Shown here: one piece after another, positions 14,726 to 29,423 of the stretch
Numbering within the stretch: the first letter of the stretch is position 1
How the letters are laid out: every line of letters begins with the position of its first letter
Virus record (IMG/VR): IMGVR_UViG_3300045253_000096
Coordinates: 1-43,362 of that record
Origin: a virus
DNA length: 43,362 nt
Reading direction: 5' to 3' (one strand)
Made by a program: the position numbers and the translations under genes
Notes under the pieces: generated by a model
Seen by the model: only the letters and a program-made list of their open reading frames with translations
What the model was told of the DNA's origin: nothing
Database searches by the model: none

Positions 14726-14979
14726 CCCCCACTATCGCAGACATCCTGGATACCGGGGATGGGGCGATTCCTGCTTCGCAGGACCGTTCTGCCGCCCTTC
14801 GGGCTGAGCCTCCTGCGGAGTCTCAGGCAGAGCCCGCTGCCACTATCGCGGAGCGTCCGGACGACGTGCGCCACATGCTAGGCGCCGTCGCATTCGAGGA
14901 GCATGAGGCGTGCGGCGGCACTGGCTGCGAAGCATGCGCGGGCGAGGGCGTGTTGCCCGTCTGGACTTACGATGAGTAA
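14722..14979 (+). CDS. Small protein with DnaJ-type zinc motif and embedded hairpin repeat
   Basis: The protein is 85 aa. ATG 14722 overlaps the upstream stop. Residues about 14-48 are encoded by mini-hairpin element A (14763-14854), giving a low-complexity Ala/Glu/Pro stretch. The functional-looking part is at the C-terminus, CGGTGCEACAGEG, a CxxTGCxxCxGxG zinc-finger half like those in DnaJ and many small phage proteins. The repeat therefore acts as a translated spacer. Confidence 0.62.
   Translation: MTPTIADILDTGDGAIPASQDRSAALRAEPPAESQAEPAATIAERPDDVRHMLGAVAFEEHEACGGTGCEACAGEGVLPVWTYDE
14763..14854 (+). repeat. Mini-hairpin element A
   Basis: Three short stems, CCTGC-TTC-GCAGG, GCCC-TTC-GGGC and CTCC-TGC-GGAG, are joined by linkers GGCGATT, ACCGTTC, TGAGCC, TCTCAGGCA and ending ACTATCGCGGAGC. 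The linkers match element B, but the stems differ on both arms. It lies inside a coding sequence. Confidence 0.75.
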
Positions 14980-15220
14980 GCGCCCGCGCCTCACTGAGCT
15001 TCAGCGCGGATGGCTAATGGAAATAGCCGACTGCGAATACGGGCTGTTTCCTCGCATGCACATTCCTGCTGGCGAGGGAGGTGGCATTAACGGCCTCCTC
15101 AAGAAGGGGCTGATTGAGTGGCACAAAAGAACCTTTCTGAAAGTAACGCCGCTGGGCGCCGAAGTCGTCGCCGCATTGCGCGAAGCCGCTTCCAAAGCGC
15201 GTGAGCAGGGGGCGGTATGA
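14972..15220 (+). CDS. Small winged-helix-like protein
   Basis: The protein is 82 aa, starting at ATG 14972, which overlaps the upstream stop. The pattern LTELQRGWLMEIADCEYG, INGLLKKGLIEWHK and LKVTPLGAEVVAAL is that of a short helix-helix-wing domain in which a stretch 'G(L/K)I...T.LG' closes the wing. This is common in phage proteins of unknown role, often described as transcription-regulator-like. DNA binding is plausible but unproven. Confidence 0.65.
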   Translation: MSKRPRLTELQRGWLMEIADCEYGLFPRMHIPAGEGGGINGLLKKGLIEWHKRTFLKVTPLGAEVVAALREAASKAREQGAV

Positions 15221-15564
15221 TGGCGGGGAACTGGACACCGGGACCGTGGAGCGTCGTGTGTGGCGAAGGCGAAAGCCCTCATTATCGGATGATCAGCGCA
15301 AACGCTCTTCGCGCAGGCGACGCTCTCAACGACGGAATCTATGTAGCGAGGGTTCAGGGGCCGGACAACCTCGCCAACGCTCACCTGATCGCCTCTGCTC
15401 CCGAGCTTTATGAAGCGCTGGCGGAAATTCTGCCGCTGGCCCGTGAAGCGATGCGCCTTGGGATCGATGACCCATCCGTTCCCAGCAGCATCACTGGCCG
15501 CCTCGGATGCAGCTATGAGCGCGCGGACGCCATCCTCGCCAAAGCCCGCGGTGAACGGTCATGA
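15217..15564 (+). CDS. Conserved phage protein (TPGPW family), unknown function
   Basis: The protein is 115 aa. NWTPGPWSVV at the start and NLANAHLIASAPELYEALAE near residue 51 are the two hallmark segments of a very common small phage protein family without known function. ATG 15217 overlaps the upstream stop. The C-terminal 40 residues are helical. Confidence 0.75.
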   Translation: MMAGNWTPGPWSVVCGEGESPHYRMISANALRAGDALNDGIYVARVQGPDNLANAHLIASAPELYEALAEILPLAREAMRLGIDDPSVPSSITGRLGCSYERADAILAKARGERS

Positions 15565-15857
15565 CCAATAACCCGACCCCTCCTGGCTCATCCGATGGGT
15601 GGGCGCCAACAGAGCAAGAAGCCCTGGCCGAAATCGAGCGGCGCGCGCGCTTGGGAAAAGACGTGATCCGCGAGCTGCAGGCGGCGATGGACGATCACTA
15701 CAAAGTCATCCGCGAATATCTGGGCCAAGAGCGCGGGCCGGGCTTTGCTCACCGCGTGAACAGCATGCTGCTTCGGGCCAGCGGTCATTTCTTCCAGATC
15801 AATGAGCGCGTCGCTGAAATCAGCGCCCGCGCGAAAGGCGACAGCCATGACCGCTAA
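15561..15857 (+). CDS. Small helical protein, unknown function
   Basis: The protein is 98 aa and starts in an ATGA overlap. After a Pro-rich N-terminus it is continuous helix: EQEALAEIERRARLGKDVI, ELQAAMDDHYKVIREYL, HRVNSMLLRASGHFFQINER. It looks like a small coiled-coil protein. No family recognised. Confidence 0.65.
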   Translation: MTNNPTPPGSSDGWAPTEQEALAEIERRARLGKDVIRELQAAMDDHYKVIREYLGQERGPGFAHRVNSMLLRASGHFFQINERVAEISARAKGDSHDR

Positions 15858-16440
15858 CTCATCCGAACTGCTCGTACTGGCGGGCTGCGATATTCGCGAG
15901 ATCGGCGAAGGATATGCAGTAACTGCCGCGGGAGATGTTTGGTCGTCTCGAAAGGGCGCCTGGGTTAGGCTAAAACCATATCTGAACAATGGATATCGGA
16001 GGCTCAGTGTTAAGCGGGGCGGTCAGCTTAAAACTGTAAAAGTGGCCCGCCTAGTTTGCGAGGCCTTCCATGGCCCAAAGCCTTTCGCACAAGCTGTCGT
16101 CCGTCACTTGGACGGGTCAAGCGTAAATGATCGTCCCGGCAACCTAGCGTGGGGCTCCTATAGCGAAAACGCGCTGGATGCGGTGCGTCATGGAACGAGC
16201 ACCGCTGTGGCCAACGGGCGCAAGGGAGCGCTGAAGCTTCGGGGCTCAGTGTCACACTTCGCTCGGCTGAGCTGGGATAAAGTGCGCGAGATTCGACGCC
16301 GCCGCTCTCTGGGTGAGCAGTTGAAGAGGCTCGCCGACGAGTTCGGTGTCAGCGAGGACTGCATCTCACGCGCCTGTCTTGGGCGCACTTGGATCGAGCC
16401 GGACATGGTCATCACGACCGGGATGCGGATCGATGGATAA
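15847..16440 (+). CDS. HNH homing-type endonuclease
   Basis: The protein is 197 aa. A NUMOD4-like beta region (YAVTAAGDVWSS, YLNNGYRRLSVKRGG) is followed by the HNH core VCEAFHGPKP, VVRHLDGSSVNDRPGNLAWG and SYSENALDAVRHG. The C-terminal 50 residues form a helix-turn-helix (DKVREIRRRRSLGEQ, KRLADEFGVSEDCISRA) for DNA binding. This is the layout of free-standing phage homing endonucleases. Its reading frame overlaps both neighbours, so it appears well settled in the operon. Confidence 0.88.
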   Translation: MTANSSELLVLAGCDIREIGEGYAVTAAGDVWSSRKGAWVRLKPYLNNGYRRLSVKRGGQLKTVKVARLVCEAFHGPKPFAQAVVRHLDGSSVNDRPGNLAWGSYSENALDAVRHGTSTAVANGRKGALKLRGSVSHFARLSWDKVREIRRRRSLGEQLKRLADEFGVSEDCISRACLGRTWIEPDMVITTGMRIDG

Positions 16441-16789
16441 GCAAGCGCTCATCGATCTCGCTGCGAGGTCCGAGGCGGCGACGGGGCCGGATCGTGAGCT
16501 TGATCTTGCGGTCTGGCGGGCGATTGACCCGAACGCCTCTGATCTAGACGCAAAAGGCAAAGTCCTCCTGCCGTGGCTGTGGTGCGTCACCTCCTCTGTC
16601 GACGCGGCGATGACGCTGGTCCCCGACAGGTGCCAATTCGGCGCAGGTCGCGACAACCTTGTCGAAGGGCCGCCGGGATGGGCGTGGGTTTCCGACAGCG
16701 AGGACTTTGAAGTCGTCCGCGCCGCCACCCCCACCCTCGCTCTCACCGCTGCTTGCCTTCGCGCTCTCGCATCAGGGGGAGGGGTATGA
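16433..16789 (+). CDS. Conserved phage protein, unknown function
   Basis: The protein is 118 aa. The N-terminal helix (KQALIDLAARSEAATGPDRE) leads to LDLAVWRAIDP, then VTSSVDAAMTLVPDRCQF and ALTAACLRALASG. This resembles a broad family of phage proteins in which a 'S.D.A..LVP' motif is followed by a family-member helix. Role unknown. It overlaps both neighbours. Confidence 0.72.
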   Translation: MDKQALIDLAARSEAATGPDRELDLAVWRAIDPNASDLDAKGKVLLPWLWCVTSSVDAAMTLVPDRCQFGAGRDNLVEGPPGWAWVSDSEDFEVVRAATPTLALTAACLRALASGGGV

Positions 16790-16989
16790 GCGTCGTACAC
16801 CTCTTCGCCACGGCCGAGCATTTGGGCGACATGGCCGCGTGCGGTGCCTGGGACCCGCCCCACATGTCCGGAAGCGTGGACGATGTGACCTGCGGCTCTT
16901 GCAAGCGCTCCCGCATCTATCGCGGCGTCAAGGAAGGCAGGTGGACGCGCCCCGCCGTGCTCCAAAATTACCGGAAGGGCCAGCCATGA
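16786..16989 (+). CDS. Small zinc-ribbon-like protein
   Basis: The protein is 67 aa and starts in an ATGA overlap. HLFATAEHLGDMAACGAW and DDVTCGSCKRSRIYRGV place Cys residues at about 24, 41 and 44 with nearby His, suggesting metal binding. No function assigned. Confidence 0.6.
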   Translation: MSVVHLFATAEHLGDMAACGAWDPPHMSGSVDDVTCGSCKRSRIYRGVKEGRWTRPAVLQNYRKGQP

Positions 16990-17234
16990 CCCAAGCATCC
17001 GAATGGAGGCCGATCGAGGAGGCGCCGAAGGACGGAACGCATGTAGTCGTCTTCGCCGCGCTTCGTCGCGATGGAACCAAAAGACGGAGTCGTAGAGGCT
17101 GCGCGGCCAGCGTTGCGCACTACGAGCAAGGATGGGGGTGGCTGTCCACGCCTAGCGACTATCAGCTTCACCCCACCCACTTCATGCCCCTCCCCGAGCC
17201 TCCCAAGGTCAGTCAGCCGGAGATCGAATCATGA
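16986..17234 (+). CDS. DUF551-like small phage protein
   Basis: The protein is 82 aa. SEWRPIEEAPKDGTHVVVFA at the start, WGWLSTPSDYQLHPTHFMPL and PEPP at the end are the recognisable pattern of the DUF551 family of phage and prophage proteins. Function unknown. It starts in an ATGA overlap. Confidence 0.78.
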   Translation: MTQASEWRPIEEAPKDGTHVVVFAALRRDGTKRRSRRGCAASVAHYEQGWGWLSTPSDYQLHPTHFMPLPEPPKVSQPEIES

Positions 17235-17554
17235 GTTGGAGAGACAGCAACGGCCGGATCGTGGCCGCCAGAAGTGTCGGGCCTGTGGTCCTTCCCGCAT
17301 CCGCGGAACTGGCGAAGCTGGACGAGCTCATCAACGCGGCTCTGCGGGCGAGGCAGGAAGCGTCACGCGAGAACCTTCGCTTCAGTCACGCCGGCAAGGC
17401 CCTGGTCAACGCCGCTTACGATCTCTTCCAGACCGACGATCTCTACACGCTTGGCGAGGACATGGCGAGGGATCTGGAGCCTGAGATCGAAGAGTCGGGA
17501 GCTACCCTGATCGGCAGGCAGATTGCCGACGAGAGAATGGGGCAGAAGCTGTGA
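17231..17554 (+). CDS. Small helical protein, unknown function
   Basis: The protein is 107 aa. ATG 17231 overlaps the upstream stop. Beyond residue 20 it is nearly all helix (AELAKLDELINAALRARQEA, KALVNAAYDLFQTDDLY, GEDMARDLEPEIEE). No motif recognised. Confidence 0.65.
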   Translation: MSWRDSNGRIVAARSVGPVVLPASAELAKLDELINAALRARQEASRENLRFSHAGKALVNAAYDLFQTDDLYTLGEDMARDLEPEIEESGATLIGRQIADERMGQKL

Positions 17555-17808
17555 CCGGAATGATGTATATCCCTTCATTACCGCAGGCACCCTTAGAGGT
17601 GACGATCAAACAGCCCGGGGGAGCTGGGGCGGTGGAATCCCCCACTTCCATTTTGGGCGATTGCCTTCGGCACCGTTCGGGCGTCGCTGCGCGACTGAGC
17701 CGCTTCGCGTCTCAGGCAAAGCCGCTCCTCACTATCGCGGAGCACGCGCTGACGCTCGCGATCATCCTCGCCTGTCTCGCCCTTCCCGCCATTTTTGCAG
17801 GAGCTTGA
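17551..17808 (+). CDS. Small membrane protein with embedded hairpin repeat
   Basis: The protein is 85 aa. GTG 17551 overlaps the upstream stop. Residues about 36-64 are encoded by mini-hairpin element B. The C-terminus is one hydrophobic segment (LTLAIILACLALPAIFAG) that should span the inner membrane. Because the repeat forms the middle of the protein, the sequence either evolved around the insertion or is only a translated leader for the next gene, whose GTG begins one base after the stop. Function unknown. Confidence 0.52.
   Translation: MTGMMYIPSLPQAPLEVTIKQPGGAGAVESPTSILGDCLRHRSGVAARLSRFASQAKPLLTIAEHALTLAIILACLALPAIFAGA
17656..17743 (+). repeat. Mini-hairpin element B
   Basis: GCC-TTC-GGC, GTCGC-TGC-GCGAC and CGC-TTC-GCG stems are set between the same linkers as element A (GGCGATT, ACCGTTC, TGAGCC, TCTCAGGCA, ACTATCGCGGAGC). 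Each stem differs from A on both arms while pairing is kept. Confidence 0.75.
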
Positions 17809-17809
17809 C

Positions 17810-18637
17810 GTGGACCCGACAGCACTCTCCTATTGGTTTCCGAGGGTCGAAGCGGCGCGGCTGCCGGTCCCCCGCACGCACATTCTGCCGATGCCTGAGG
17901 CCGTTCAGCAGACGATTTTTGCGCACCTTTGGGGCGAGGAGGCAGATGGGGCGAGCGTAGAGGCGTTCGCGCGCCAACTGGCGGATACGGCGGCCGATTT
18001 GGGCGCGCCCTTTTTCCTCCGCACGGACCATACGTCAGATAAACACGATTGGAAGCGCGCCTGCTACGTCGCTGACCCGTCTGAAGTTGCGGCGCATGTC
18101 TATGCCATTGCCGAGTTTTCCGAATGCGCGGGCTTTCCCGGCCTGCCTTGGTCGACTTGGGTTGCGCGCGAGATGCTGCCGACGATTCCGGTCGGAATCT
18201 GTCCTCGATACGGCGACATGCCGGTCTGCAAAGAGTTCAGGTTCTTCGTTGATGGCGGCACCGTCGAATGCTTTCACCCGTACTGGCCTCGTCACGCCCT
18301 CGAAAGCGGTGGATGCCATCTAACGGACGCCGAGTATGACGCGCTCTGCAATCCAGATGACATTGAGGCCCTTCGCAATCTTGCATCGCTCGCCGGTCGC
18401 GCGGTGGGCGGAAGGTGGTCTGTTGACCTCTTAGAAACCGAGCGCGGCTGGTTCGTCACCGATATGGCTGAGGCCGACAAGTCCTTTCATTGGGAAGGAT
18501 GCGCCGCGTCATGCGATGAGCGCCCGCAGGGCGAAGACTCGCGCAGCGAGGCTGAGGGCCAACGGCCCGCCAGCGCGGTCGGCGAAGCCGAGACGCCCAA
18601 AACCTCACCGGAGGACACCCCCAATGCAACAGCATGA
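17810..18637 (+). CDS. ATP-grasp domain protein
   Basis: The protein is 275 aa. Key segments match phage-borne ATP-grasp proteins: PFFLRTDHTSDKHDWKRACY (nucleotide-binding strand and loop), CAGFPGLPWSTWVAREMLP, MPVCKEFRFFVDGGTVECFH, and GGRWSVDLLET plus GWFVTDMAEADKSFHWEGC, which supply the metal- and ATP-contacting acidic residues. Such enzymes join a carboxylate to an amine; the substrate is unknown here. GTG 17810 has AGGAG six bases before it. The last 37 residues are encoded by mini-hairpin element G and are probably not part of the fold. Confidence 0.72.
   Translation: MDPTALSYWFPRVEAARLPVPRTHILPMPEAVQQTIFAHLWGEEADGASVEAFARQLADTAADLGAPFFLRTDHTSDKHDWKRACYVADPSEVAAHVYAIAEFSECAGFPGLPWSTWVAREMLPTIPVGICPRYGDMPVCKEFRFFVDGGTVECFHPYWPRHALESGGCHLTDAEYDALCNPDDIEALRNLASLAGRAVGGRWSVDLLETERGWFVTDMAEADKSFHWEGCAASCDERPQGEDSRSEAEGQRPASAVGEAETPKTSPEDTPNATA
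18520..18598 (-). repeat. Mini-hairpin element G
   Basis: Read on the plus strand the stems are CCC-GCA-GGG, CTCGC-GCA-GCGAG and CGGC-GAA-GCCG, the reverse orientation of elements A-E. It is homologous to element F. It encodes the C-terminal tail of the ATP-grasp protein. Confidence 0.72.
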
Positions 18638-18818
18638 CCCTTCGGTAATGCGGTTAGCAGGCGAGCTCGCTGAGAAGCTTGGCGGAGAGCCGTGGATACG
18701 GCCGGTCGAGCAGCCACAAATTATTGATGCGCCCGTCGCTCGCCCTGGTCGGGCCGATGTCTGGCCTCCGGAAGTGCTTGAGGAAATCCGACGCGTCTAC
18801 TCGGGAGAGGACAGGTGA
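18624..18818 (+). CDS. Small protein, unknown function
   Basis: The protein is 64 aa. ATG 18624 overlaps the ATP-grasp end, with GGAGG about nine bases upstream. The middle (VEQPQIIDAPVARPGRADVW) ends in a helix with the pattern PPEVLEEIRRVYSGED, which looks like a DNA- or protein-binding tail. No family recognised. Confidence 0.6.
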   Translation: MQQHDPSVMRLAGELAEKLGGEPWIRPVEQPQIIDAPVARPGRADVWPPEVLEEIRRVYSGEDR

Positions 18819-19003
18819 ACGCCCAAACCCAAATCGCCCGCGATTACAGCCGCGCCCAAACCAATGCCGAGTGCCGTCGGGACGCAGCCCTTCGCGATAT
18901 CCGCGAGAAGTACGCTCGGCTGTTGCGAAGGCTCACGGCTCGGCAGGCGATGGAGGAATCGCGGGTCCAGCGAGACTTCGTGTCAGGGAAGCTCGGCCGA
19001 TGA
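18815..19003 (+). CDS. Small coiled-coil protein
   Basis: The protein is 62 aa. GTG 18815 overlaps the upstream stop. It is an almost uninterrupted charged helix (AECRRDAALRDIREKYARLL). It directly precedes the Gp157/Rad52 pair and may act with them, but there is no direct evidence. Confidence 0.6.
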   Translation: MNAQTQIARDYSRAQTNAECRRDAALRDIREKYARLLRRLTARQAMEESRVQRDFVSGKLGR

Positions 19004-19500: not shown

Positions 19501-19502
19501 CC

Positions 19503-20165
19503 ATGGTCGACTTTGCCCTCCTCGCCGCGCCCTTCCCCGAGGAAATGGTCCAGTGGCGCGCTCAATCGGTCACGAAGGACGGCACCAAGGCGATGGCGCT
19601 CGCGTACATCGATGCTCGGGCCGTCGAGGATCGACTAGACTTGGCCTGTGGTCCAGCCAACTGGCAGGACAGTTACGTCGAGACCCCGCGCGGCAGGATT
19701 ATATGCACGCTCGGCATCCGCTGTGGCGATGAGTGGATATATAAGTCTGACGGTGCTGGAAATACCGATGTTGAGGGCGACAAGGGCGCTCTCTCGGATG
19801 CGCTAAAGCGGGCCGCCGTCAAATGGGGGATCGGACGCTACCTCTATGACATGCCCACCCCTTGGGTTCCGTGCGAGAGCTACAAGAAGGGCGACAAATT
19901 TCAGTGGAAAGACTGGAAGGAAAGCCCTTGGAAGCTTGTTCGGAACGCTTCGTTTCGGCCTGCGGCTGATGAGACCGCCGCCCTTCCGCCAGCCATCCAA
20001 ACGATGCTGGACGAGATCGAAGCCTGCGACACGCAAGCCCTTCTTCAGCGCTGGTGGAAGGACAACAACGAGAAGATTCCAGACGCGCATTACGGCCGCG
20101 TGCTGAACGCTGTGAACGCTCGTCGCGAGCAGATCACGACGATGGATATGGCGAGGGCGGCATGA
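19503..20165 (+). CDS. Rad52/22-like single-strand annealing protein
   Basis: The protein is 220 aa. Recognisable segments: AMALAYIDARAVEDRLDLAC, GPANWQDSYVETPRGRIICT, GDEWIYKSDGAGNTDVEGDK, ALSDALKRAAVKWGIGRYLY. These are the Rad52/Rad22 family's conserved core, including the K-G-A-xS-DALKRAAV segment that binds DNA. It anneals complementary strands for phage recombination, probably with NinB and the HNH nuclease downstream. No partner exonuclease of the Exo type is seen. Confidence 0.9.
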   Translation: MVDFALLAAPFPEEMVQWRAQSVTKDGTKAMALAYIDARAVEDRLDLACGPANWQDSYVETPRGRIICTLGIRCGDEWIYKSDGAGNTDVEGDKGALSDALKRAAVKWGIGRYLYDMPTPWVPCESYKKGDKFQWKDWKESPWKLVRNASFRPAADETAALPPAIQTMLDEIEACDTQALLQRWWKDNNEKIPDAHYGRVLNAVNARREQITTMDMARAA

Positions 20166-21358: not shown

Positions 21359-21546
21359 ACCGAACAGTGAGATATTCATACGCACTCAGCCGAAATGAGG
21401 TCATTGCGGCTATCGTCGCAGCGATCGGCTTACCCCCTGGCACGGTTCCTGAAAACTTCACGATAAAGGGCGAAGCCTTAGCCGAGCCCCAGCCGATTCT
21501 ATGGATGACCGTCACCGAAGAGGGCGATCGGGAGTTGGGCGTGTGA
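21355..21546 (+). CDS. Small protein, unknown function
   Basis: The protein is 63 aa, starting at ATG 21355 in an ATGA overlap. The pattern is a helix (LSRNEVIAAIVAAIGLPPGT), then a beta hairpin (ENFTIKGEALAE, PILWMTVTEEGD). It recalls small phage proteins that bind nucleotides or RNA, but there is no firm match. Confidence 0.58.
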   Translation: MNRTVRYSYALSRNEVIAAIVAAIGLPPGTVPENFTIKGEALAEPQPILWMTVTEEGDRELGV

Positions 21547-22280
21547 CCCGCGCCAGCGATCAGCACCCGCAGGGCGAAAACTCGCGAAGCGAGGTTGAGG
21601 GCGAAGCCTGCGAGCGCGGTGACGCCGAAGGCGGCAGGCGCCCAGACTCCCCTTCTATCTCGTCACCCCCTGTCGAACAGGCGCGGGTGTGTACCGTTCC
21701 GGTCGATCCGACTGACGACATGATCGAAGCCGGAGAGGCGCAGCTAGAGCGGTGTGACGAGGACATGCACAACTATGTCTCAGGCGTCACTACGGACTGG
21801 GATTATGGCATGGAGGCTGAGGCCGTCTTCCGTGCGATGCTCGCTGCTCGCCCCGCATCCCCACCCCCTATCCCAGATGAGCGAATGAGGAAGGCGCTGG
21901 AGCGACTGGAGCTTCTGCTGACCGATCCGGCTCGTGGCTATTGCGAGAACATCGCTCGGGCTCGCGATTTCATCGCCCAGACCCTCTCCGCCTCTCCCGC
22001 CCCTGCAAGCGCTACCGATTACGCTTACCACTGCGACGATCCTGCCTGCGAATATCAGGGCCGCCGTCATCCGGCACCGTACTGCATGCCGAAGTCCGCC
22101 CCTGTATCCGATAAGCTGGAAGGGGAAGGGCTGGATCGTCTGATCGACATGATCATCAGCGCCTACCACACGACCAGGTTGTGCGACGTTCCGGCCGCAA
22201 CGCACATTCGCACTAAGCTGGGTGACCGGCTGCTATCTGCAATTCGCGCCTCTCTCTCCAGTGATGAGGGGGCGAGATGA
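21543..22280 (+). CDS. Hypothetical protein with hairpin repeat in its N-terminus
   Basis: The protein is 245 aa. GTG 21543 overlaps the upstream stop. Residues about 8-34 are encoded by mini-hairpin element F. The rest holds VPVDPTDDMIEAGEAQLERC, AEAVFRAMLAARPASPPP and RMRKALERLELLLTDPARGY. Another stretch has three Cys residues and one His (CDDPACEYQGRRHPAPYC) and resembles a small zinc site, and the end is helical. The 'DDMIEAG...VFRAMLAARP' segment is common in phage proteins and looks like a repeated helper module rather than an enzyme. Function unknown. Confidence 0.6.
   Translation: MTRASDQHPQGENSRSEVEGEACERGDAEGGRRPDSPSISSPPVEQARVCTVPVDPTDDMIEAGEAQLERCDEDMHNYVSGVTTDWDYGMEAEAVFRAMLAARPASPPPIPDERMRKALERLELLLTDPARGYCENIARARDFIAQTLSASPAPASATDYAYHCDDPACEYQGRRHPAPYCMPKSAPVSDKLEGEGLDRLIDMIISAYHTTRLCDVPAATHIRTKLGDRLLSAIRASLSSDEGAR
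21565..21642 (-). repeat. Mini-hairpin element F
   Basis: Stems CCC-GCA-GGG, CTCGC-GAA-GCGAG, GGC-GAA-GCC and GCC-GAA-GGC, homologous to element G with linkers kept. It encodes part of the N-terminus of gene 21543-22280. Confidence 0.72.
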
Positions 22281-22693
22281 GCGGGAACGAGGTTGGGCGC
22301 GTGCCTTCGGCACCGGGCTCTCGCGAGCCGAGCCCTGAAGGTCTCGGCCCTTCGGGCTTCGATCCCTCGCGCGTTCATGCGGCACCAAGCTTAACAAGAG
22401 AGGGCGACGACGCGCTCGTCGTTTTACTGCTCTACCACCTTCATTCTCACCTGCCCGAAGAGCAGCGACCAATGGCGATGTGCGACCTGTCCGACGAACA
22501 GGCCGAACGCGGTCGCGCCGCCGTTATTGCCCTAAAGACGGCGATCGTGTCGGAGATTTCGGAATCCTTCCGCGCTCTCCGCGATAGCGATGGAAGCCCG
22601 GAGGGGCGAGACGCGAAGCGGCTCGACGGCGAAGCCGCGACAGCGCGGGCCGAAGGCATCGCCCAACCTCAACCCGAGGACAATTCCCAATGA
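22277..22693 (+). CDS. Hypothetical protein bracketed by two hairpin repeats
   Basis: The protein is 138 aa and starts in an ATGA overlap. Its N-terminal 33 residues come from mini-hairpin element C and its C-terminal 27 residues from element H in the opposite orientation. Only the middle (DDALVVLLLYHLHSHLPEE, LSDEQAERGRAAVIALKTAI) looks like a folded helical protein. It is the clearest case here of repeats forming both ends of one reading frame. Function unknown. Confidence 0.55.
   Translation: MSGNEVGRVPSAPGSREPSPEGLGPSGFDPSRVHAAPSLTREGDDALVVLLLYHLHSHLPEEQRPMAMCDLSDEQAERGRAAVIALKTAIVSEISESFRALRDSDGSPEGRDAKRLDGEAATARAEGIAQPQPEDNSQ
22301..22373 (+). repeat. Mini-hairpin element C
   Basis: GTGCC-TTC-GGCAC, GGCTC-TCGC-GAGCC and GCCC-TTC-GGGC with linkers resembling elements D and E (GAGCC, TCTCGG, TTCGATCC). 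Direct orientation, inside the N-terminal coding sequence of gene 22277-22693. Confidence 0.7.
22594..22668 (-). repeat. Mini-hairpin element H
   Basis: Contains CGC-GAA-GCG, CGGC-GAA-GCCG and GCC-GAA-GGC, then ATCGCCC. The last part is the reverse complement of the start of element B (GGGCGAT, GCC-TTC-GGC), which ties the two orientations together as one family. Confidence 0.7.
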
Positions 22694-24090
22694 CCGATGA
22701 GCCCAAAGCGCTGGTGAGCAAATACGACCGCGACGAAATCGCTCGCGTGCTTTTCCAGCAACGACAAACCGATCACGATTGGGAGGATAGCCAAGACGCT
22801 GATCCCGACAGCGATGCCGGCACGCTTCGCTCGATTTGCTTTGACGACGCCGACGCGGTGATCGCCGCCCTACTGGCGGATCAAGCCCTGAGCACCCACT
22901 CCACTCCATCCCAACCAGTAGGCGAGCGAGCGGGGTTGGTCGAGCACTTGCGGCCAGAAGTCTTAGCGTTCGCCCGTCTGATGGAGCGGGAGCTTCGGGC
23001 CAACGATCACAAACCAGGCTGGAAGAATGATCGGATCGGCCAACTCGCTCCCCGGGTGGTTCAGGAGGCGGACGAACTCCTGAGGGCGGTCCGGCGCCTA
23101 GAGGAACGCTGGGGCGAACATCTCTGTGGCGGTCCAGACCGTGGATCAGTCCGTATGTCCGACGCTGACATGCGACAGTCAGTCGTGGAGGAAGCGGCGG
23201 ACGTTGCCAACATGGCCATGATGGTCGCTGACGTTCTTGGCGCACTCCCCGCCCTCGCCACCCCTGTCTCCGCTCCAGTAGGCGAGGGCCGACATTCCTT
23301 CAAAGTTGGAGATCGGCCAGATACGATCGCCGCCTGTCATGCGATGTTGTCAGCAGTCGAATTTCTGTATCGAGACGCCCAGCAACAATATGCCACGCTA
23401 AAGCTGCTCACGACCCCGACGACCGCTCCAGTAGGCGAGCCTGCCAAGCTGCTGGAGAACTTGCGCAGCTTCGAGGCGGCGATTCGGTCGGAGGTTGCTG
23501 CCGACCGCGAGGAGGGACACAATGCCGCCGCCGACATGCGCGAGCGACGGGCTGACGAACTCGCGGCGACTATCGCTTACATCGAAGCCCTCAGCGCTCC
23601 AGTAGGCGAGGAGGCGGTAGAGCGGGAACTTCGCGAGAAGGCGAGGGGTCCGGTTCCAGACGATGTTCCTGAGCCGATGCGCGAGCGCTACGTCGAAATG
23701 CAACTTCGGCACACCGAAGACGAAATCCGCATGTGTCGTGAGCACTTCGGAGGTGACTGGCTAAAGCGCGTTGCTGGGCTGCTTCATATGGCCGGGGTGA
23801 TGGCTCCGCCAGAGGGCTCCTACCATCACATGTGTCTCGTCAATTCGCGCGCCTTGGGTGTCCTCGCCTCTATCTCATCCACGAATGGGCTGAGGGAAGC
23901 GCTCTCCACCATTCTGTCGATCATCGCGGAAATGGTAGAGATAGCCGTCGCGGATGAAGACAGCGAGATCGCCGAGGAATGGCCTATCGACAATCGCGCG
24001 CAGGTCGACCGCTGGCAGTCGCAAATCGCCGCAAGCCTCGCCGCCCTCTCACCATTCAATGGACTGACGGAGGGGTCCGGCGATGCTTAG
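22690..24090 (+). CDS. MazG-like modular protein with APVGE linkers
   Basis: The protein is 466 aa. Residues about 86-185 look like a phage MazG-type nucleotide pyrophosphohydrolase: HLRPEVLAFARLMERELRAN, VVQEADELLRAVRRLEERW and VVEEAADVANMAMMVADVLG, with the helix acidic residues that bind Mg. The other segments are helical modules without clear family. Four modules are separated by the linker (A/Q)PVGE, each encoded by the same 12 bases, CCAGTAGGCGAG. The enzyme would hydrolyse (d)NTPs to alter the nucleotide pool during infection. Assignment rests on one module. Confidence 0.62.
   Translation: MTDEPKALVSKYDRDEIARVLFQQRQTDHDWEDSQDADPDSDAGTLRSICFDDADAVIAALLADQALSTHSTPSQPVGERAGLVEHLRPEVLAFARLMERELRANDHKPGWKNDRIGQLAPRVVQEADELLRAVRRLEERWGEHLCGGPDRGSVRMSDADMRQSVVEEAADVANMAMMVADVLGALPALATPVSAPVGEGRHSFKVGDRPDTIAACHAMLSAVEFLYRDAQQQYATLKLLTTPTTAPVGEPAKLLENLRSFEAAIRSEVAADREEGHNAAADMRERRADELAATIAYIEALSAPVGEEAVERELREKARGPVPDDVPEPMRERYVEMQLRHTEDEIRMCREHFGGDWLKRVAGLLHMAGVMAPPEGSYHHMCLVNSRALGVLASISSTNGLREALSTILSIIAEMVEIAVADEDSEIAEEWPIDNRAQVDRWQSQIAASLAALSPFNGLTEGSGDA
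22915..23610 (+). repeat. Four in-frame copies of CCAGTAGGCGAG
   Basis: The copies are at 22915-22926, 23275-23286, 23428-23439 and 23599-23610. The last three extend to the shared CTCCAGTAGGCGAG. All encode PVGE and mark module borders in the MazG-like gene. Identity at DNA level, including synonymous positions, suggests recent duplication or recombination at these points. Confidence 0.85.
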
Positions 24091-24184
24091 GACGGCCTTC
24101 GGCAACCTGCTCTCGCCCTACGGGCCGAGCCGCTGCGCGTCTCGTCGCTACGCGCTTCGATCAGGCGTAGGGCGCGCGTTGTGA
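24083..24184 (+). CDS. 33-codon ORF made of a hairpin repeat, bridging two genes
   Basis: ATG 24083 overlaps the end of the MazG-like gene, and the TGA overlaps the GTG of the excisionase-like gene. The ORF (MLRTAFGNLLSPYGPSRC at its start, then Arg-rich) is almost entirely mini-hairpin element D. Its likely role is to keep ribosomes moving across the element so that the next gene is translated. A functional peptide is less likely. Confidence 0.42.
   Translation: MLRTAFGNLLSPYGPSRCASRRYALRSGVGRAL
24095..24170 (+). repeat. Mini-hairpin element D
   Basis: GCC-TTC-GGC, CCC-TAC-GGG, CGC-TGC-GCG and CGC-TAC-GCG stems. The linkers GCTCTCG, CCGAGCC, TCTCGTCG and TCGATC are shared with element E, which has different stems and loops at the same places. 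Confidence 0.75.
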
Positions 24185-24576: not shown

Positions 24577-25451
24577 ACCTCTACGGCTCCGAGCACGCCC
24601 CGACGAGAGCCGATCCCGCGCGCATCGGCTACGCGATCGACGCGCTGCTGTCCTTCTGGGACGGCAAGACGGTTGCTGAGATCAGCAAGACGACATGCCG
24701 GAAATACGTCGTTCACCGCCAGCGGGCGCCGGGAACGGTGCGACGCGAGCTCGGAACGCTCACCGCAGCACTCAACTTCGCCGTTCACGAAAAGCTGCTC
24801 GAGCGGGCGCCGCACGTAGAATTACCCGAGAAGCCGGAAGGCAAAGAGCGGTGGCTGACCCGTATCGAGGCCGCCAAGCTGCTCAACGCCTCAAGGACGG
24901 GCCGCAGCGACGTTCGCCTCTACCTGCCGTTGTTCGTCCTGCTCGGGCTCTACACGGGAGCGAGGAAGCAAGCGATCCTGACCCTTCGCTGGCCCCAGGT
25001 CGACCTTGAGCGCGGCCGAATCGACTTCCGCCGGGGGACCAGGCGCACGAACAAGGGGCGGGCGCATATCCCGATCCCGGCCCGGCTGCTCACCTTCCTC
25101 AAGCTCGCTTATCGGCGCCGGATGTCCGATGTCGGGTTCGTGCTTCACGACAAGGGGCGGCCGATCAAGGACATCGGCGGGGGCTGGGACGGAAGGCCGA
25201 GCGCCGACCCGAAACAGCTACGCGGACAGGGCAGCTTCGGCACGGCCTGCAAGAAGGCGGGGTTGATCGATGTCACTCCGCACACCCTAAGGCATACGCG
25301 CGGGACGTGGCTGGCTCAGGCGGGCGTGGATCTGTGGGAGATCGCGGGCTGGCTCGGGCAGTCCTACGCGACGACGGTCGAGCTCTACGCCCATCATCAT
25401 CCGGATCATATGGAAGAAGCGAAGCGAGCGACGGATAGGAGGAATGCGTGA
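24354..25451 (+). CDS. int: Tyrosine recombinase integrase
   Basis: The protein is 365 aa. The N-terminal arm-binding domain is at about 8-52 (KWIPKRQSWYIVWYEAGRER), the core-binding SAM-like domain at 68-155 and the catalytic domain at 165-355. The active-site set is visible: R204 in LYTGARKQ, K234 in TNKGRAHI, H310 and R313 in TPHTLRHTRG, and nucleophile Y345 in TVELYAHHHP. The usual second His of the LGHS motif is replaced by Gln (LGQS). It should integrate the phage at the tRNA-Arg(CCG) gene whose 3' half is at 25731-25781, 280 bases downstream. Confidence 0.95.
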   Translation: MPRPNSGPRLKWIPKRQSWYIVWYEAGRERLKSAGTTDRGQAEEALAGVIGERQRRTRGAGPRDPGEVSVAEVLDLYGSEHAPTRADPARIGYAIDALLSFWDGKTVAEISKTTCRKYVVHRQRAPGTVRRELGTLTAALNFAVHEKLLERAPHVELPEKPEGKERWLTRIEAAKLLNASRTGRSDVRLYLPLFVLLGLYTGARKQAILTLRWPQVDLERGRIDFRRGTRRTNKGRAHIPIPARLLTFLKLAYRRRMSDVGFVLHDKGRPIKDIGGGWDGRPSADPKQLRGQGSFGTACKKAGLIDVTPHTLRHTRGTWLAQAGVDLWEIAGWLGQSYATTVELYAHHHPDHMEEAKRATDRRNA

Positions 25452-25717
25452 GCGAGGGCACTGCCAAACCGACCTTAAGCGACCTAGACGGCGTGACAGG
25501 CATCGGCGCGTCTTACGATCGCGAAGAAGACCAGTGGGACCTCTACACGATGCCCGGCGTCAAGCCGCTTGGGGTGGTCGTTAAGGGATACAATCGCCGC
25601 ATGCTCGACTGGATTGTAGACTCTCTGCGAACTGCCTTGGCGGAAGCGAACGAATCCGGCCCAAACGACCGTAACTCGGACGGAGACTCGGACAGCCGCG
25701 AGGGGGCGATTGGCTAA
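25448..25717 (+). CDS. Small protein between int and attP
   Basis: The protein is 89 aa. GTG 25448 overlaps the integrase stop. The first 65 residues (LDGVTGIGASYDREEDQWDL, LGVVVKGYNRRMLDWIVDSL) look folded; the tail is Asp/Ser-rich. Its stop lies 13 bases before the attachment core, so in a prophage it is the last phage gene at the integrase end. Function unknown; a recombination accessory role is possible. Confidence 0.6.
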   Translation: MSEGTAKPTLSDLDGVTGIGASYDREEDQWDLYTMPGVKPLGVVVKGYNRRMLDWIVDSLRTALAEANESGPNDRNSDGDSDSREGAIG

Positions 25718-25730
25718 GTGATTGAGAAAA

Positions 25731-25781
25731 TGGCGCACCCAAGAGGATTCGAACCTCTGGCCTCTGCCTTCGGAGGGCAGC
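25731..25781 (-). other. attP core: 3' half of tRNA-Arg(CCG)
   Basis: Read on the minus strand from 25780 to 25731, the bases give an anticodon stem-loop (CTGCC-CTCCGAA-GGCAG, anticodon CCG), variable region, T-arm (AGAGG-TTCGAAT-CCTCT), the 3' acceptor strand TGGGTGC, discriminator G and the encoded CCA. The 5' half (D-arm and acceptor 5' strand) is absent: the sequence beyond 25781 does not continue as tRNA. Phages carry such fragments so that integration rebuilds the host tRNA. On integration the intact tRNA end would lie on the int side. Confidence 0.92.
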
Positions 25782-25816
25782 CCGAGACGCTTTCTAAGAG
25801 AGCGAAACGTCTGATT

Positions 25817-26338
25817 TCAGCGGCTTTCGACGCGGAACGCAGCGGGAAAATGCGTAGGAGACTCGAACGGGTCCGAGTTATCGGGCCTAAGGGCGTTGAT
25901 CCGGTCGATTTCGGCCAGCAGTTCCGGTGTCCGCTCGAACCACTCGCCATGCAGCCGGGACGCCCCAAAGTGGACGGTATGGTACATCCATTCGGCCGTT
26001 CGATCGCCGATTCCAACTGCCAGGATGCGCAGCGGAATGGGGCTGCCGCACTGGAGCGCTGCGAGGCGCTTAGCAGGATCTGTCGAAAGCCCGATCTTGA
26101 TGGCTCCGATGTCGCCCCCGATGAAATAAATGCAACTCGGGGCCTCGAAGCGCTTCTTCACGGCAATGCCGGGAAGGTCTTCCGCCATGAAACGGCGATA
26201 CGCCGCTTCGGCCTTCACCGGGTCATTCGTTCCCGTCGATCGCGTCCCCTGCGTTCCGTCGCCGCGAGTCCAGTGGATGTAATAGGCGTCCCGCTTTTTC
26301 AGGAACTTGAGGTAGGGACCTTTGGCTTTGCGCGGCAT
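25817..26338 (-). CDS. Integrase-type N-terminal domain fused to GIY-YIG domain
   Basis: The protein is 173 aa. Residues 1-50 (GPYLKFLKKRDAYYIHWTRG, then TRSTGTNDPVKAEAAYRRFM) resemble the arm-binding domain of this phage's own integrase. Residues 60-140 are a MUG113-type GIY-YIG domain: CIYFIGGDIGAIKIGLSTDP, KRLAALQCGSPIPLRILAVG, AEWMYHTVHF and GEWFERT. It ends 36 bases from attP, facing the integrase. ATG 26338 is chosen; GTG 26389 is in frame. A -35/-10 pair (TTGCGT, 16 bases, TACTGT) ends six bases before the ATG, so the mRNA may be leaderless. Confidence 0.75.
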   Translation of the reverse strand: MPRKAKGPYLKFLKKRDAYYIHWTRGDGTQGTRSTGTNDPVKAEAAYRRFMAEDLPGIAVKKRFEAPSCIYFIGGDIGAIKIGLSTDPAKRLAALQCGSPIPLRILAVGIGDRTAEWMYHTVHFGASRLHGEWFERTPELLAEIDRINALRPDNSDPFESPTHFPAAFRVESR

Positions 26339-26489
26339 TTGTCCACAGTAACGCGGCGTAGCTCGGACGCAAGCGCTTTCACCCCTCACCCCTTGGGACA
26401 GTATGGAGAGTGTTTATGCCGTTGGATTCGGGCGATTTCGGCTGCGCCGAACCGTCGCTACCCATGAACGGAGCCAATCTTCGTTGTCT

Positions 26490-26519
26490 CCGCCCTTACG
26501 GGCGGGTATCGACTATCGC
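26490..26519 (+). repeat. Mini-hairpin element K, short
   Basis: CCGCCC-TTAC-GGGCGG is followed by GACTATCGC directly before ATG 26520, resembling the end linker (ACTATCGCGGAG) of elements A and B. It is the shortest and least certain member. Confidence 0.5.
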
Positions 26520-26990
26520 ATGGAGGGCGCGTTGAAGCTTGACCACCCCGAAGCGGAGCAGTTCGCGCGCATTATCTGGCAGGCGACCATGGCCGCTTGG
26601 GATCTCTGCCTCGGGGGACACGACTGGCCCGCGAAGAAAGAGATGCGGGAGCGAATGAAGTTTCCACGGCCGGGCGACATGGTCGTTGAAGCTAGCGCTG
26701 GCCTGCGCAAGCTCGACTGCGCGATGGCCGTTGGCTGGCTTGTCAGAGAGGCTCGGGAGCCCATCGAAGTCGATGAATGGAACGTGGAAGAAGACGGACC
26801 AATACCGCTGGAAAAGGTGGTCTACATAACAGCCATAGACGGGCGAGATGCGCGCTGGGTGGACTGTGAGTTTTTCCAAGTGCCGACCTACCCAGGCTGG
26901 TGGGATTCAGAGCGGTGGCAAAAGGCGTTGGCGGAAAAGCGCCGCGATAGCGGCAGCGACCCGAAGGGCGAAAACGCCGAAGGCGGTTGA
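26520..26990 (+). CDS. Conserved phage protein, unknown function
   Basis: The protein is 156 aa from ATG 26520. A longer frame from ATG 26403 (195 aa) is open, but its extra codons are less GC-rich at third positions and pass through element K. The body holds EAEQFARIIWQATMAAWDLC, FPRPGDMVVEASAGLRKLDC and the C-terminal FQVPTYPGWWDSERWQ. The 'W......P.PGDMVVE' pattern is one I associate with phage proteins of unknown role. The C-terminal tail reads into element J. Divergent from the GIY-YIG gene. Confidence 0.62.
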   Translation: MEGALKLDHPEAEQFARIIWQATMAAWDLCLGGHDWPAKKEMRERMKFPRPGDMVVEASAGLRKLDCAMAVGWLVREAREPIEVDEWNVEEDGPIPLEKVVYITAIDGRDARWVDCEFFQVPTYPGWWDSERWQKALAEKRRDSGSDPKGENAEGG

Positions 26991-27036
26991 GTGCGAAGCA
27001 TCGCAGAGCGGCCCCCGAAGAGGGGCATCGCCCAAC
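26944..27036 (-). repeat. Mini-hairpin element J
   Basis: Contains GCC-GAA-GGC, GCGAAGC-type and CCCC-GAAG-GGGG stems and ends GGGGCATCGCCCAACC, the same end as elements H and I. It covers the last codons of the upstream gene and part of the intergenic space. Confidence 0.65.
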
Positions 27037-27084
27037 CCCTAGCCCCTAGAGAACCATCCCACACAACACTATAGGGGGAGAGAT

Positions 27085-27240
27085 ATGGAACACCCTGAAG
27101 ATTTGATCGTCCAGAATCTGCTGAAGGATTTGCAAGAGCGTAAGGGCTTCCGTCAGGTCTATGACGAGATGACCCGCGGCGTTCGGCTCGAGATGACCCG
27201 AGAATGGCTGAGGATCGTTCGCGAGGTGCTGGCCAACTGA
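27085..27240 (+). CDS. Small helical protein, last plus-strand gene
   Basis: The protein is 51 aa. ATG 27085 has a strong GGGGGAG site. The protein is all helix (DLIVQNLLKDLQERKGFRQV, EMTREWLRIVREVLAN). ACTATAG about 10-15 bases upstream could be its own -10 element. It may be a small regulator; no family assigned. A weak hairpin (GGTGAG/CTCACC, 27256-27283) follows and might terminate transcription. Confidence 0.68.
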   Translation: MEHPEDLIVQNLLKDLQERKGFRQVYDEMTRGVRLEMTREWLRIVREVLAN

Positions 27241-27634
27241 CCTAGCCGCTAAGGGGGTGAGGCTGCGGGCCGGGTTTCTCACCTGGCATTTTGCCGCGCC
27301 GCCGAAGCGGCCGACGTCAGCGGATCTGGCCTAGACCGACTGTCGTGTTCTCCACGCCGCCGCAGCCTCGTTGCGCTCGACTGATCTGGCGGCCGACAAG
27401 TCAGCGAAATGACCAGCCCCAGCGCAATCCCCTCGCTATCAGGAAAAGACTGGATCAGCAAGCGGGGATATGGTAGCGCAGGGGATGGTTGCGGCGGCGT
27501 GGATGGACACGCTAAGCCACGAAATGTAACCGCGCAGTCGTGCAGCACGGCGCGGGGCAATGCTCAGGAAGGCCGACTGCACGATCTAGGCCTACAATGT
27601 GCACAGCCGGTATCAAGCCCGGCCCGCAACCGAC
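27241..27634. other. Convergent intergenic region, no gene found
   Basis: There are 394 bases between the last plus-strand gene and the last gene of the minus-strand late operon. Open frames here (for example 27409-27645 plus, 27279-27560 minus) have no protein-like content or ribosome site. It contains a perfect 8-bp inverted repeat, TCGTGCAG (27538-27545) and CTGCACGA (27577-27584), and an imperfect hairpin ATCCCC/GGGGAT around 27427-27468. These may be terminators for the two facing operons or a structured RNA. Neither has a U-tract. Confidence 0.5.
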
Positions 27635-27901
27635 CTACCCCCTGAACTTCCCCGCTTCCTGAGCCCGTCCGAACGCAGCCCCCATCGCCTCGAAATCGCT
27701 CGCAAGGCTGTCACTGATCTGCTGCTTCATCGGCACCAGCACAGCCGGCGTATTGGGACCGTGGGCCTCGATAAGCTGTTCGGCGATGGTCAGCGCCTTC
27801 CCGACTAGGGGATTGCCCTTGCCGGCGCCCTGAGCGAGCTTCAGACCCTCGCGAAGGAACGGTATCAGATATCCGGCGGAGATGGGAGGAAGGCCGCTCA
27901 T
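27635..27901 (-). CDS. Small helical protein, end of late operon
   Basis: The protein is 88 aa and starts in an ATGA overlap with the lipoprotein gene. It has a Gly/Pro-rich N-terminus, then helices (LVGKALTIAEQLIEAHGPNT, DFEAMGAAFGRAQEAGKF). Possibly a virion-associated or lysis-linked accessory protein. No family recognised. Confidence 0.62.
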   Translation of the reverse strand: MSGLPPISAGYLIPFLREGLKLAQGAGKGNPLVGKALTIAEQLIEAHGPNTPAVLVPMKQQISDSLASDFEAMGAAFGRAQEAGKFRG

Positions 27902-28377
27902 TGACTGGCTCCTTTGTGACGATTGAGGATAGAGGTGAGCTGGGCGATGAGGCCGTCAGCCTTGACGATCTGGTCGTTGTAGACGAGGCCGTTGCGGTCC
28001 TCGTAGGCCGACTTCGCCTTGCCGAGATGGTATTGGATCTGGCAGCCGAGCGCGAGAGCCGCGCCGCCGTCATCCGCGGGGCCGATCTGGGCAAGCTCGG
28101 CCACGACCATCGGGCAGAACTGCGGATGCGCCGTGTCGGGGCTGGTCGAGGTCGGAAGGCGCCCGGAGTTGAAATACTCCGTCATGCGATCGGCTTCGGC
28201 CGTGGCGAGGCGAACGCGGGTCTGGAGCTTGTCCTGGTCCATCGGGACGACCGCGGCCTGCTGCTGCACCGCATGACCAGAGACAGCCAGGCTTCCGACC
28301 GTCGCTATTCCAGTCGCGATCTCTGTAGCTCCGCATCCCGCCAGCAACAGGGGGGTGAGGTATAGGAGGGGTTTCAT
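27898..28377 (-). CDS. Phage lipoprotein
   Basis: The protein is 159 aa. The N-terminus MKPLLYLTPLLLAGCGATE is a signal peptide with lipobox LLAGC, so Cys 15 should be lipidated. The mature part is helical with two further Cys residues (HPQFCPMVVAELAQIG, ALALGCQIQYHLGKAKSAY). ATG 28377 has AAGGAG seven bases upstream. It lies downstream of the lysis genes in the same direction. It could be a spanin-like outer-membrane component or an exclusion lipoprotein; the sequence does not decide. Confidence 0.72.
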   Translation of the reverse strand: MKPLLYLTPLLLAGCGATEIATGIATVGSLAVSGHAVQQQAAVVPMDQDKLQTRVRLATAEADRMTEYFNSGRLPTSTSPDTAHPQFCPMVVAELAQIGPADDGGAALALGCQIQYHLGKAKSAYEDRNGLVYNDQIVKADGLIAQLTSILNRHKGASQ

Positions 28378-28410
28378 GGTTGGACTCCTTGGTGAGTTTG
28401 GGCGCGATTC

Positions 28411-28478
28411 CCGGCTCTCGCCCTGCGGGCCGAACCCCTTCGGGTTTCGTCGCTTCGCGCCTCGATCCGGCGCGCGGG
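28411..28478 (+). repeat. Mini-hairpin element E
   Basis: CCC-TGC-GGG, CCC-TTC-GGG and CGC-TTC-GCG stems with the linkers of element D (GCTCTCG, CCGAACC, TTTCGTCG, CTCGATC). This copy lies between two late genes and is not translated. Confidence 0.75.
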
Positions 28479-28482
28479 ATGC

Positions 28483-28746
28483 TTAATCCGCATCGACCAG
28501 CCTCTTGACGGACAGCACGCAGCGCGTCGGGATGTGGATCACGCCGGAAACCTGGACCGTCGCCTTCTCATCGATTCCGCCCATGTTCGGCGCCAACGCC
28601 TTGACCTTCTTGCCGTCTTTGATGAGCCAGCCGACCGAGGCGATGCGAACAGGCGAACCAGCTTTCCAGTCGGCCAGCGCTTCCCATCCGGACGACGGCT
28701 GAACGCTGTCCTCCCATTCGATCAGGACGAGAGGACACTTGCTCAT
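28483..28746 (-). CDS. Small conserved phage protein
   Basis: The protein is 87 aa. LVLIEWEDSVQPSSGWEALA at the start and VQVSGVIHIPTRCVLSVKRL at the end form a small beta-rich fold. The 'IEWEDS.QP...W' beginning recurs in small phage proteins of unknown function. ATG 28746 follows AGAGGGGA. Its stop is close to element E. Confidence 0.65.
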   Translation of the reverse strand: MSKCPLVLIEWEDSVQPSSGWEALADWKAGSPVRIASVGWLIKDGKKVKALAPNMGGIDEKATVQVSGVIHIPTRCVLSVKRLVDAD

Positions 28747-28880
28747 TGCAAGAATCCCCTCTCCTGTGTTACCGGTGCCGCTATGCGCAGCCTCCGATTA
28801 TCGCGCCCAAGAAGGACACTGTGGCAAGCTTGACGGCTTCCCGCCTCGCCCTCTCTTGACCTCGATAATCGGTGAACATC

Positions 28881-29375
28881 ATGGCCAGTCGCGCCCATCG
28901 CTGGAAAGGCGATGACACTCCCCTTACCGGCGTTCATGGCGGCTCCGCTGCCGCCGCACGCGCCGCCGTCAAAGAGTCCAAGCGCCTCCTCGACGAGCGC
29001 GCTCGGGCCGCTGTGCGCGAGGTTATCGCGCGCAATCAGGCCGCTTACGAGAGCGCTCCACGCAAGGATCGCCTCCGTCCGCGTGCGAGCTCCCGCCCCC
29101 GCTCTCCGCGATCTTGGCTGACCGACCTTATGCTGGCCCAGAACGGCCTGTGTTTCTACTGCGGACGCCGAATGCTCACTGGCCCGCTTCCCGATGAAGC
29201 GCTGTTCCGTCGCGCCACTATCGACCACTACGTTCCGCTGGCGCGTGGCGGCCTGAACGTGCGCGACAACGTCGTCGGCGCCTGTAACGAGTGCAACAAT
29301 CGAAAGGGCGCGCTGATGCCGGATGAGTTCGCCGCGATAGCGATGCCACTCCGCGAAGAACGCGTCAGCGGCTGA
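28881..29375 (+). CDS. HNH endonuclease on the plus strand
   Basis: The protein is 164 aa. It has a basic helical N-terminal half (AARAAVKESKRLLDERARAA). The HNH core is CFYCGRRMLTGPLPDE, RRATIDHYVPLARGG and NVVGACNECNNRKG, with two Cys pairs and the catalytic DHY. It stands opposite to the lysis region, between two minus-strand late genes. GATAAT at 28864-28869 is a possible -10, so it likely has its own promoter and came in as a mobile gene. ATG 28881 is used; GTG 28872 is the alternative. Element I follows its stop. Confidence 0.82.
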   Translation: MASRAHRWKGDDTPLTGVHGGSAAAARAAVKESKRLLDERARAAVREVIARNQAAYESAPRKDRLRPRASSRPRSPRSWLTDLMLAQNGLCFYCGRRMLTGPLPDEALFRRATIDHYVPLARGGLNVRDNVVGACNECNNRKGALMPDEFAAIAMPLREERVSG

Positions 29376-29423
29376 GGCCGAAGGCTGGCAGCGCGGGCCG
29401 GAGCGCAGCGAAGGCATCGCCCT
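29371..29423 (-). repeat. Mini-hairpin element I
   Basis: GCC-GAA-GGC, CAGCGCGGGCC and CGAAGGCATCGCCC, the latter shared with elements H and J. It lies at the 3' end of the plus-strand HNH gene and might mark the edge of that insertion. Confidence 0.65.

Follow-up and report, generated by a model that had tools for sequence, protein, structure and literature searches.

What are the hairpin-rich repeats scattered among the genes of a phage-type virus, and why do they lie where they do? This question is raised by the viral DNA of IMG/VR record IMGVR_UViG_3300045253_000096, which was analysed over its whole length of 43,362 nucleotides (hereafter the window). The initial annotation had listed ten such stretches (elements A to J, Table 1) as one dispersed family whose stems change in pairs, indicating selection for structure. 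This view was borne out. The stretches are copies of a single DNA element of about 85 bp with a Watson-Crick-only structure and sharp borders, which forms convergent pairs in phages and is placed on one strand, at the 5' edge of sequence blocks, in conjugative plasmids. Neither the convergent pairing around genes nor the occurrence in conjugative plasmids and microviruses had been part of the initial annotation.

Architecture and base pairing of the element

Once oriented alike, the ten stretches give a single consensus. A covariance model of the element built with a hand-set structure (R1) matched all of them (E 1e-20 to 7.5e-4) and added two further copies, at 9940 and 26422; seven of these 12 (A, B, C, D, H and J among them) lie outside the model seed. 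Other R1 matches in the window were weak (E 0.02-0.9) and are excluded from the count. The same search yielded 240 copies in 88 phage-type and plasmid loci, no match better than E 0.12 being found in the integrase-related phage G002. Rfam contains no family matching any element, either at the gathering score or up to E 1. Copies occur on both strands of the window, as had been annotated, but setting F/G and H/I/J apart as reversed forms was only partly right, because all copies share one architecture once oriented.

The layout was taken from an alignment of 56 diverse copies (A1). It comprises an outer stem P1, a first hairpin, a long-range helix P2, hairpins 2-4 and a helix P3, joined by conserved linkers. 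From 5' to 3' the order is GGGCGnn (P1), hairpin 1, nnGCtX (5' arm of P2), TCG, hairpin 2, CGAGcC (5' arm of P3), hairpin 3, GtCTCG (3' arm of P3), hairpin 4, cTTC, X'AtCnn (3' arm of P2) and nnCGC (3' arm of P1). P2 and P3 each contain a conserved C.T mismatch (A1 columns 56/126 and 82/101, respectively). Because the arm lengths vary, P1 and the first two hairpins were not recovered by RNAalifold from a MAFFT alignment. When IMG/VR was scanned with three linkers only (GAGCC..GTCTCG..TTCGATC), about two thirds of the matches listed were full elements with self-complementary variable arms. The phage seed sequences were collected by the linker pattern, so that linker conservation is partly given by construction; this pattern played no part for the copies of plasmids F and R46 and of the microvirus L269, nor for most of those in the window.

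Double-sided changes in at least one sequence were seen at 20 of the 25 model pairs in A1. The covariation score was 0.358, compared to 0.124 +/- 0.008 after shuffling (0.358 was reached in none of 500 shuffles); sliding the 3' partners gave no score above 0.082. Single-base-pair covariation extends to the long-range helices P2 and P3; the X:X' pair of P2, for example, is C:G in 95, G:C in 21 and T:A in 17 cases. The 9940 copy and its collinear copy in the related phage G003 show 93% identity over 92 bp, with two compensatory pair changes, both in hairpin 1; the flanking matches are 70-85%.

Among 2,694 well-aligned pair cells from 136 non-redundant copies, 2,643 were Watson-Crick pairs, 10 were G-U, 10 were A-C and 31 were other combinations. 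Twenty tRNAs from the same loci served as control and had 392 Watson-Crick and 39 G-U pairs in 431 stem cells (9% G-U); as ARAGORN scores its own pairs, the G-U share alone is meaningful there. The restriction to Watson-Crick pairs, with G-U no commoner than A-C and thus unlike tRNA stems, argues for selection at the level of DNA pairing and favours folded DNA over RNA.

Gene cassettes in phages and block edges in plasmids

Among phage copies less than 1 kb apart (88 loci), 61 of 91 adjacent pairs are convergent (+-), the others being -+ (20), ++ (5) and -- (5). The P values are 6e-15 for inverted and 6e-6 for convergent orientation, and the convergent excess is gone beyond a spacing of 1.5 kb. 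Convergent pairs typically bracket one small gene: a single open reading frame (ORF) covers at least 95% of the interval in 66% of them; the figure is 36% for random windows and 23% for divergent pairs. The ends are often translated as terminal tags, in two main frames at the N-terminus (..GSREPSP..GFDPSR or ..VSAVPASIPSA) and in two at the C-terminus (..RDSDGSPEG.. or ..IEARRAETGTGSVHESAV..). The annotated positions at gene ends and the in-frame translation of several window copies are indeed seen in the ORF translations. The statement that copies occur only in the accessory part was inexact: the 9940 copy sits on the structural side, over the 3' end of the minus-strand ORF 9913-10344, the C-terminus of which is translated through the copy (..VETGTGSIREADESGG..).

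The window cassette between elements E and F and cassettes of G001, L227 and L228 have common tags and share nothing recognisable between them. Element E itself is 96% identical to a G001 copy that flanks a different gene. Among the Pfam matches of cassette genes are HNH, dCMP deaminase, DUF1643, and Dam and N6/N4 methylases. Homologues of the ATP-grasp gene of the window were found between convergent elements in two loci (L260, L261) and without elements in a third (L262); their neighbours are not shared, bar one weak match. In pairwise comparisons of element copies, homology ends at the element borders. Four copies were found in the Sphingopyxis phage VSN-002 (MZ127829), among which a convergent pair occupies the ends of its annotated gene_19. 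Annealing proteins are encoded by several carriers (Rad52 in the window, ERF in VSN-002, Erf in one prophage), and the Rad52/22-type protein of the window is a possible driver of exchange between elements. A near-identical empty site was not found: L261 and L262, with and without elements, are too diverged for this comparison, and so are the integrase-based relatives G001 and G003.

Blast searches hit hundreds to thousands of plasmids, whether the query was the consensus or a Salmonella copy; matches to the latter mostly cover the element exactly. The search of plasmid F covered 20 kb and gave exactly two copies (58083-58178 and 63471-63566), which precede ssb and the gene at 64032 by about 460-560 bp. 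Frpo2 and Frpo1 of F have been placed upstream of these genes (PMC9849209). Each of the two Frpo blocks has the element at its 5' edge; the blocks are homologous to one another over 559 bp starting from the element, and an AT-rich inverted repeat lies downstream of it. R46 carries three copies in its ardA/ccg leading region, with the linker variant that also characterises elements A and B of the window, and with two of them a 655-bp duplicated block begins at the 5' edge of the element. The conserved upstream (CUP) repeats lie in this region and may be the same blocks. In all of the about 20 plasmid copies examined the strand is that of the downstream leading genes (F 2/2, R46 3/3, Salmonella 3/3, Winslowiella 3/3, Massilia 5/5).

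In a plasmid of Massilia sp. WG5 (L221, positions 15840, 27457 and 30994) an intergenic block of 586-667 bp is repeated with 88-95% identity, the element always coming first; these blocks are candidate single-strand promoter blocks outside enterobacteria. The element also heads promoter-sized intergenic regions before leading-region genes in NZ_CP150372 (L223; 9678, 12236) and NZ_CP134153 (L220; 14483, 17048).

Two Microviridae carry the element in intergenic position, antisense to the genes. In both, the genome strand has the reverse-complement version, which is the one expected on a T-strand. A scan of viral contigs with the enteric-type sequence gave nine stretches on contigs of 9-44 kb and hence no further microviruses. 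The initial annotation had also considered a host origin, owing to a resemblance to sphingomonad chromosomal repeats, and this could not be maintained. A strict pattern found only 75 stretches in 257 Gb of genomes, mostly in Bradyrhizobium and relatives and some of them near metallopeptidase and toprim genes on plasmids. Strong matches were present in 22 of the 201 Sphingomonadaceae genomes. Two clusters were examined and lie in prophages: both include a phage integrase, accompanied in one by an Erf-like annealing protein and in the other by a phage-type repressor; weak matches (E 1e-5 to 1e-9) exist outside prophages. The element is a feature of mobile elements (temperate phages, prophages, leading regions of conjugative plasmids and two microviruses) and not a sphingomonad chromosomal repeat.

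The Bradyrhizobium copies (L129-L203) are followed, some 100-200 bp further downstream, by a more extended array of different GC-rich hairpins, likewise conserved (CGCTATCACTGCCCCG..GGGTGCC, ..GCTATGCTCACGCTC..), which may be a second folded-DNA family.

A probable folded single-strand signal and its alternatives

The position in plasmid F recalls Frpo, or ssi, the single-strand promoter of F-like plasmids that reportedly goes back to Masai and Arai in 1997. Like Frpo/ssi (PMC9849209; PMC11541004), the element is probably a folded single-strand DNA signal of leading regions with a fixed strand. Unlike it, the element has no stem restoring -35/-10 boxes and lies about 400-550 bp from the gene; it is also common in double-stranded DNA phages, as inverted pairs outside leading regions. 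With the CUP repeats, an IncN plasmid feature for which PMC3490853 cites Delver and Belogurov (1997), it has the leading-region copies and the duplicated block of R46 in common, whereas CUP denotes a whole upstream regulatory repeat. In the accessible parts of the literature on Frpo, CUP and leading regions, with the founding 1997 papers outside this scope, the folded unit of about 85 bp is not described separately, and no paper was found on phage cassettes of this form. The plasmid side of the element may have been noticed in part before; the family spanning phages, plasmids and microviruses and the bracketed cassettes appear to be new.

We tentatively favour, as quite possible, the interpretation that the element folds when single-stranded and marks the edges of exchangeable modules, acting in an ssi-like manner in priming, with cassettes spread by annealing. 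Recognition of the folded strand would fall to a host single-strand DNA protein that is widely conserved, and the element would most likely be a priming site for complementary-strand synthesis of the ssi/sso type. With an inverted pair, conversion to duplex could start at the 3' side of either cassette strand. Cassettes could plausibly spread when phage proteins (Rad52/Erf) anneal the ends that they have in common, and the peptide tags would be a tolerated by-product of the translated ends. In the phage cassettes, the reverse-complement version stands at the 3' side of each strand. The ssi-like role is preferred because this would be the required place of a priming signal for copying the cassette. 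For the plasmids and the two microviruses we infer that the reverse-complement version is the one on the strand that actually occurs single-stranded, 3' of the genes templated; the identity of the T-strand follows here from gene direction and PMC11541004.

Several points weigh against this interpretation. Double-stranded DNA phages need not pass through a single-stranded genome stage, and their copies lie on both strands. The consensus is GC-rich and contains no -35/-10 boxes (no TTGACA/TATAAT), and minimum-energy DNA folding of single copies fails to give the covariation-supported fold. The support from microviruses comes from two genomes only, and the strand logic for the T-strand rests on gene direction. 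Finally, ColIb-P9, which has known single-strand promoters/ssi sites (PMC7736820) and served as positive control for ssi, gave no R1 match at E <= 0.01 in 45 kb; the element is therefore not required for single-strand promoters or ssi.

Two other explanations are the main rivals. Sites of the integron attC type are recognised as a folded single strand, and the element might be a recombination site of such a cassette system, at which a recombinase or annealing protein joins elements and moves the gene, the plasmid copies being remnants or parts. As in attC, the structure is conserved while the arm sequence varies, some unpaired bases are conserved and one-gene cassettes are flanked, as observed here, with unrelated cargo inside the same ends. 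The finding of the ATP-grasp cassette at three sites whose neighbourhoods are not shared and a break of homology within element A in G003, followed by different sequence, would fit as well. However, each cassette has two inverted sites instead of one, the fold is branched with four hairpins, and neither IntI nor any dedicated recombinase beyond the phage integrase was recognised. The attC core sites GTTRRRY/RYYYAAC are, by inspection, not in the 56-element consensus, and the fixed orientation and block-edge position in plasmids would be left unexplained, so that we regard this explanation as rather doubtful. Also unlikely is a selfish dispersed repeat comparable to Rickettsia palindromic elements (RPE), REPINs or MITEs, tolerated in frame at gene ends and with a structure serving its own mobility via a single-strand intermediate. 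It would explain the sharp borders, the terminal in-frame insertions and the same gene occurring with elements in different frames or without them, but not the strict strand and position in plasmids, the prevalence of convergent pairs or an orthologous copy better conserved than the flanking genes, and no transposase was found. RPE resemble the element as palindromes read in frame within proteins that are otherwise unrelated; going by their description, the element differs from them in its fold, in its location at gene termini and in pairs, and in occurring on phages and plasmids. REP/REPIN sequences with RAYT transposases are likewise dispersed, folded and often in inverted pairs, whereas the element brackets a gene, no RAYT was seen and the GTAG at the hairpin foot is, by inspection, absent from the consensus.

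The reading at the RNA level towards which the initial annotation leaned (very stable UUCG hairpins, terminators), which would make the element a structured mRNA end or a processing signal, is very improbable. GC-rich hairpins with UUCG-like loops at gene ends and the many copies within transcripts would suit it, but G-U pairs are as rare as A-C pairs, copies occur in both orientations relative to genes and without an Rfam counterpart, and those on microvirus single-stranded DNA are antisense to the genes. Equally hard to credit is the absence of any selection, with palindromic arms maintained by template switching during replication, as had also been suggested, or by gene conversion between copies. 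Perfect arms, and compensatory double changes in hairpin 1 with the remainder nearly unchanged, could be produced in this way. Local template switching cannot, however, regenerate the P2 pairs, because other hairpins lie between the partners; single pairs of P2 and P3 covary across up to about 80 nt, and mismatches and linkers are conserved from alphaproteobacteria to enterobacteria.

If the element is a folded single-strand signal, it might belong to a module-boundary system across phages, conjugative elements and single-stranded DNA viruses, in which an element read by a conserved host protein brackets or heads accessory and early-entry modules and makes accessory and early-entry modules exchangeable between phages and plasmids; this extension is conceivable, though more speculative. 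Phage mosaicism, i.e. the swapping of small accessory genes, and the entry of conjugative plasmids, the F factor included, would then be linked via one folded-DNA signal. The cassettes offer a handle for collecting small phage accessory genes, and the element could serve to find blocks of the single-strand promoter type where Frpo similarity fails.

Copies and neighbouring genes in the window

The copies in the window and the genes associated with them are listed in Table 1. Megablast of the 14-30 kb region against INPHARED gave no relative, and the portal protein is not shared. Element A, which represents the linker variant CCGTTCTGC..GCCACTA, is 92% identical to its counterpart in G001. The C-terminus of the ATP-grasp protein is translated through element C.

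Table 1. Element copies and associated genes in the window, with R1 or Pfam E values
Feature	Position	Strand	Evidence and remarks
Element copy added here	9940..10043	+	R1 E 1e-15
Element A	14754..14855	+	R1 E 1.5e-7; N-terminal coding region
Element B, left end of ATP-grasp cassette	17647..17744	+	R1 E 1.5e-8; not translated in that frame
ATP-grasp R2K_3-like cassette gene	17795..18637	+	PF14243 E 3.6e-5, just below curated cut-off
Element C, right end of ATP-grasp cassette	18500..18606	-	R1 E 1.7e-6
Rad52/22-type single-strand annealing protein	19503..20165	+	PF04098 E 3.1e-15
Element D	21544..21651	-	R1 E 1.8e-6; translated near N-terminus of ORF 21501-22280
Cassette ORF spanning elements E and F	22277..22693	+	N-terminal tag GRVPSAPGSREPSPEGLGPSGFDPSR, C-terminal tag RDSDGSPEGRDAKRLDGEAATARAE
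Element E, left cassette end	22287..22378	+	R1 E 9.8e-21
Element F, right cassette end	22575..22672	-	R1 E 1.9e-20
Element G	24082..24174	+	R1 E 3.8e-17; directly past stop of ORF 22690-24090
Cassette ORF, start in 26422 copy, end in element H	26403..26990	+	Translation
Element copy added here	26422..26525	+	R1 E 6.8e-7
Element H	26938..27041	-	R1 E 3.5e-5
Element I	28392..28481	+	R1 E 6.3e-19; between two minus-strand genes, the downstream one starting at 28377
Element J	29328..29430	-	R1 E 7.5e-4; 3' end of HNH gene 28872-29375

The accessory region contains two HNH endonuclease genes, 15802-16440 and 28872-29375, the latter matching PF01844 and ending at element J. A gene for tRNA-Arg(CCG) at 25731-25803 (minus strand) lies beside the integrase gene. 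With 85% identity to a stretch of phage G003 and a partial counterpart in G006, the tRNA-bearing segment 25731-25848 probably serves as attachment site.

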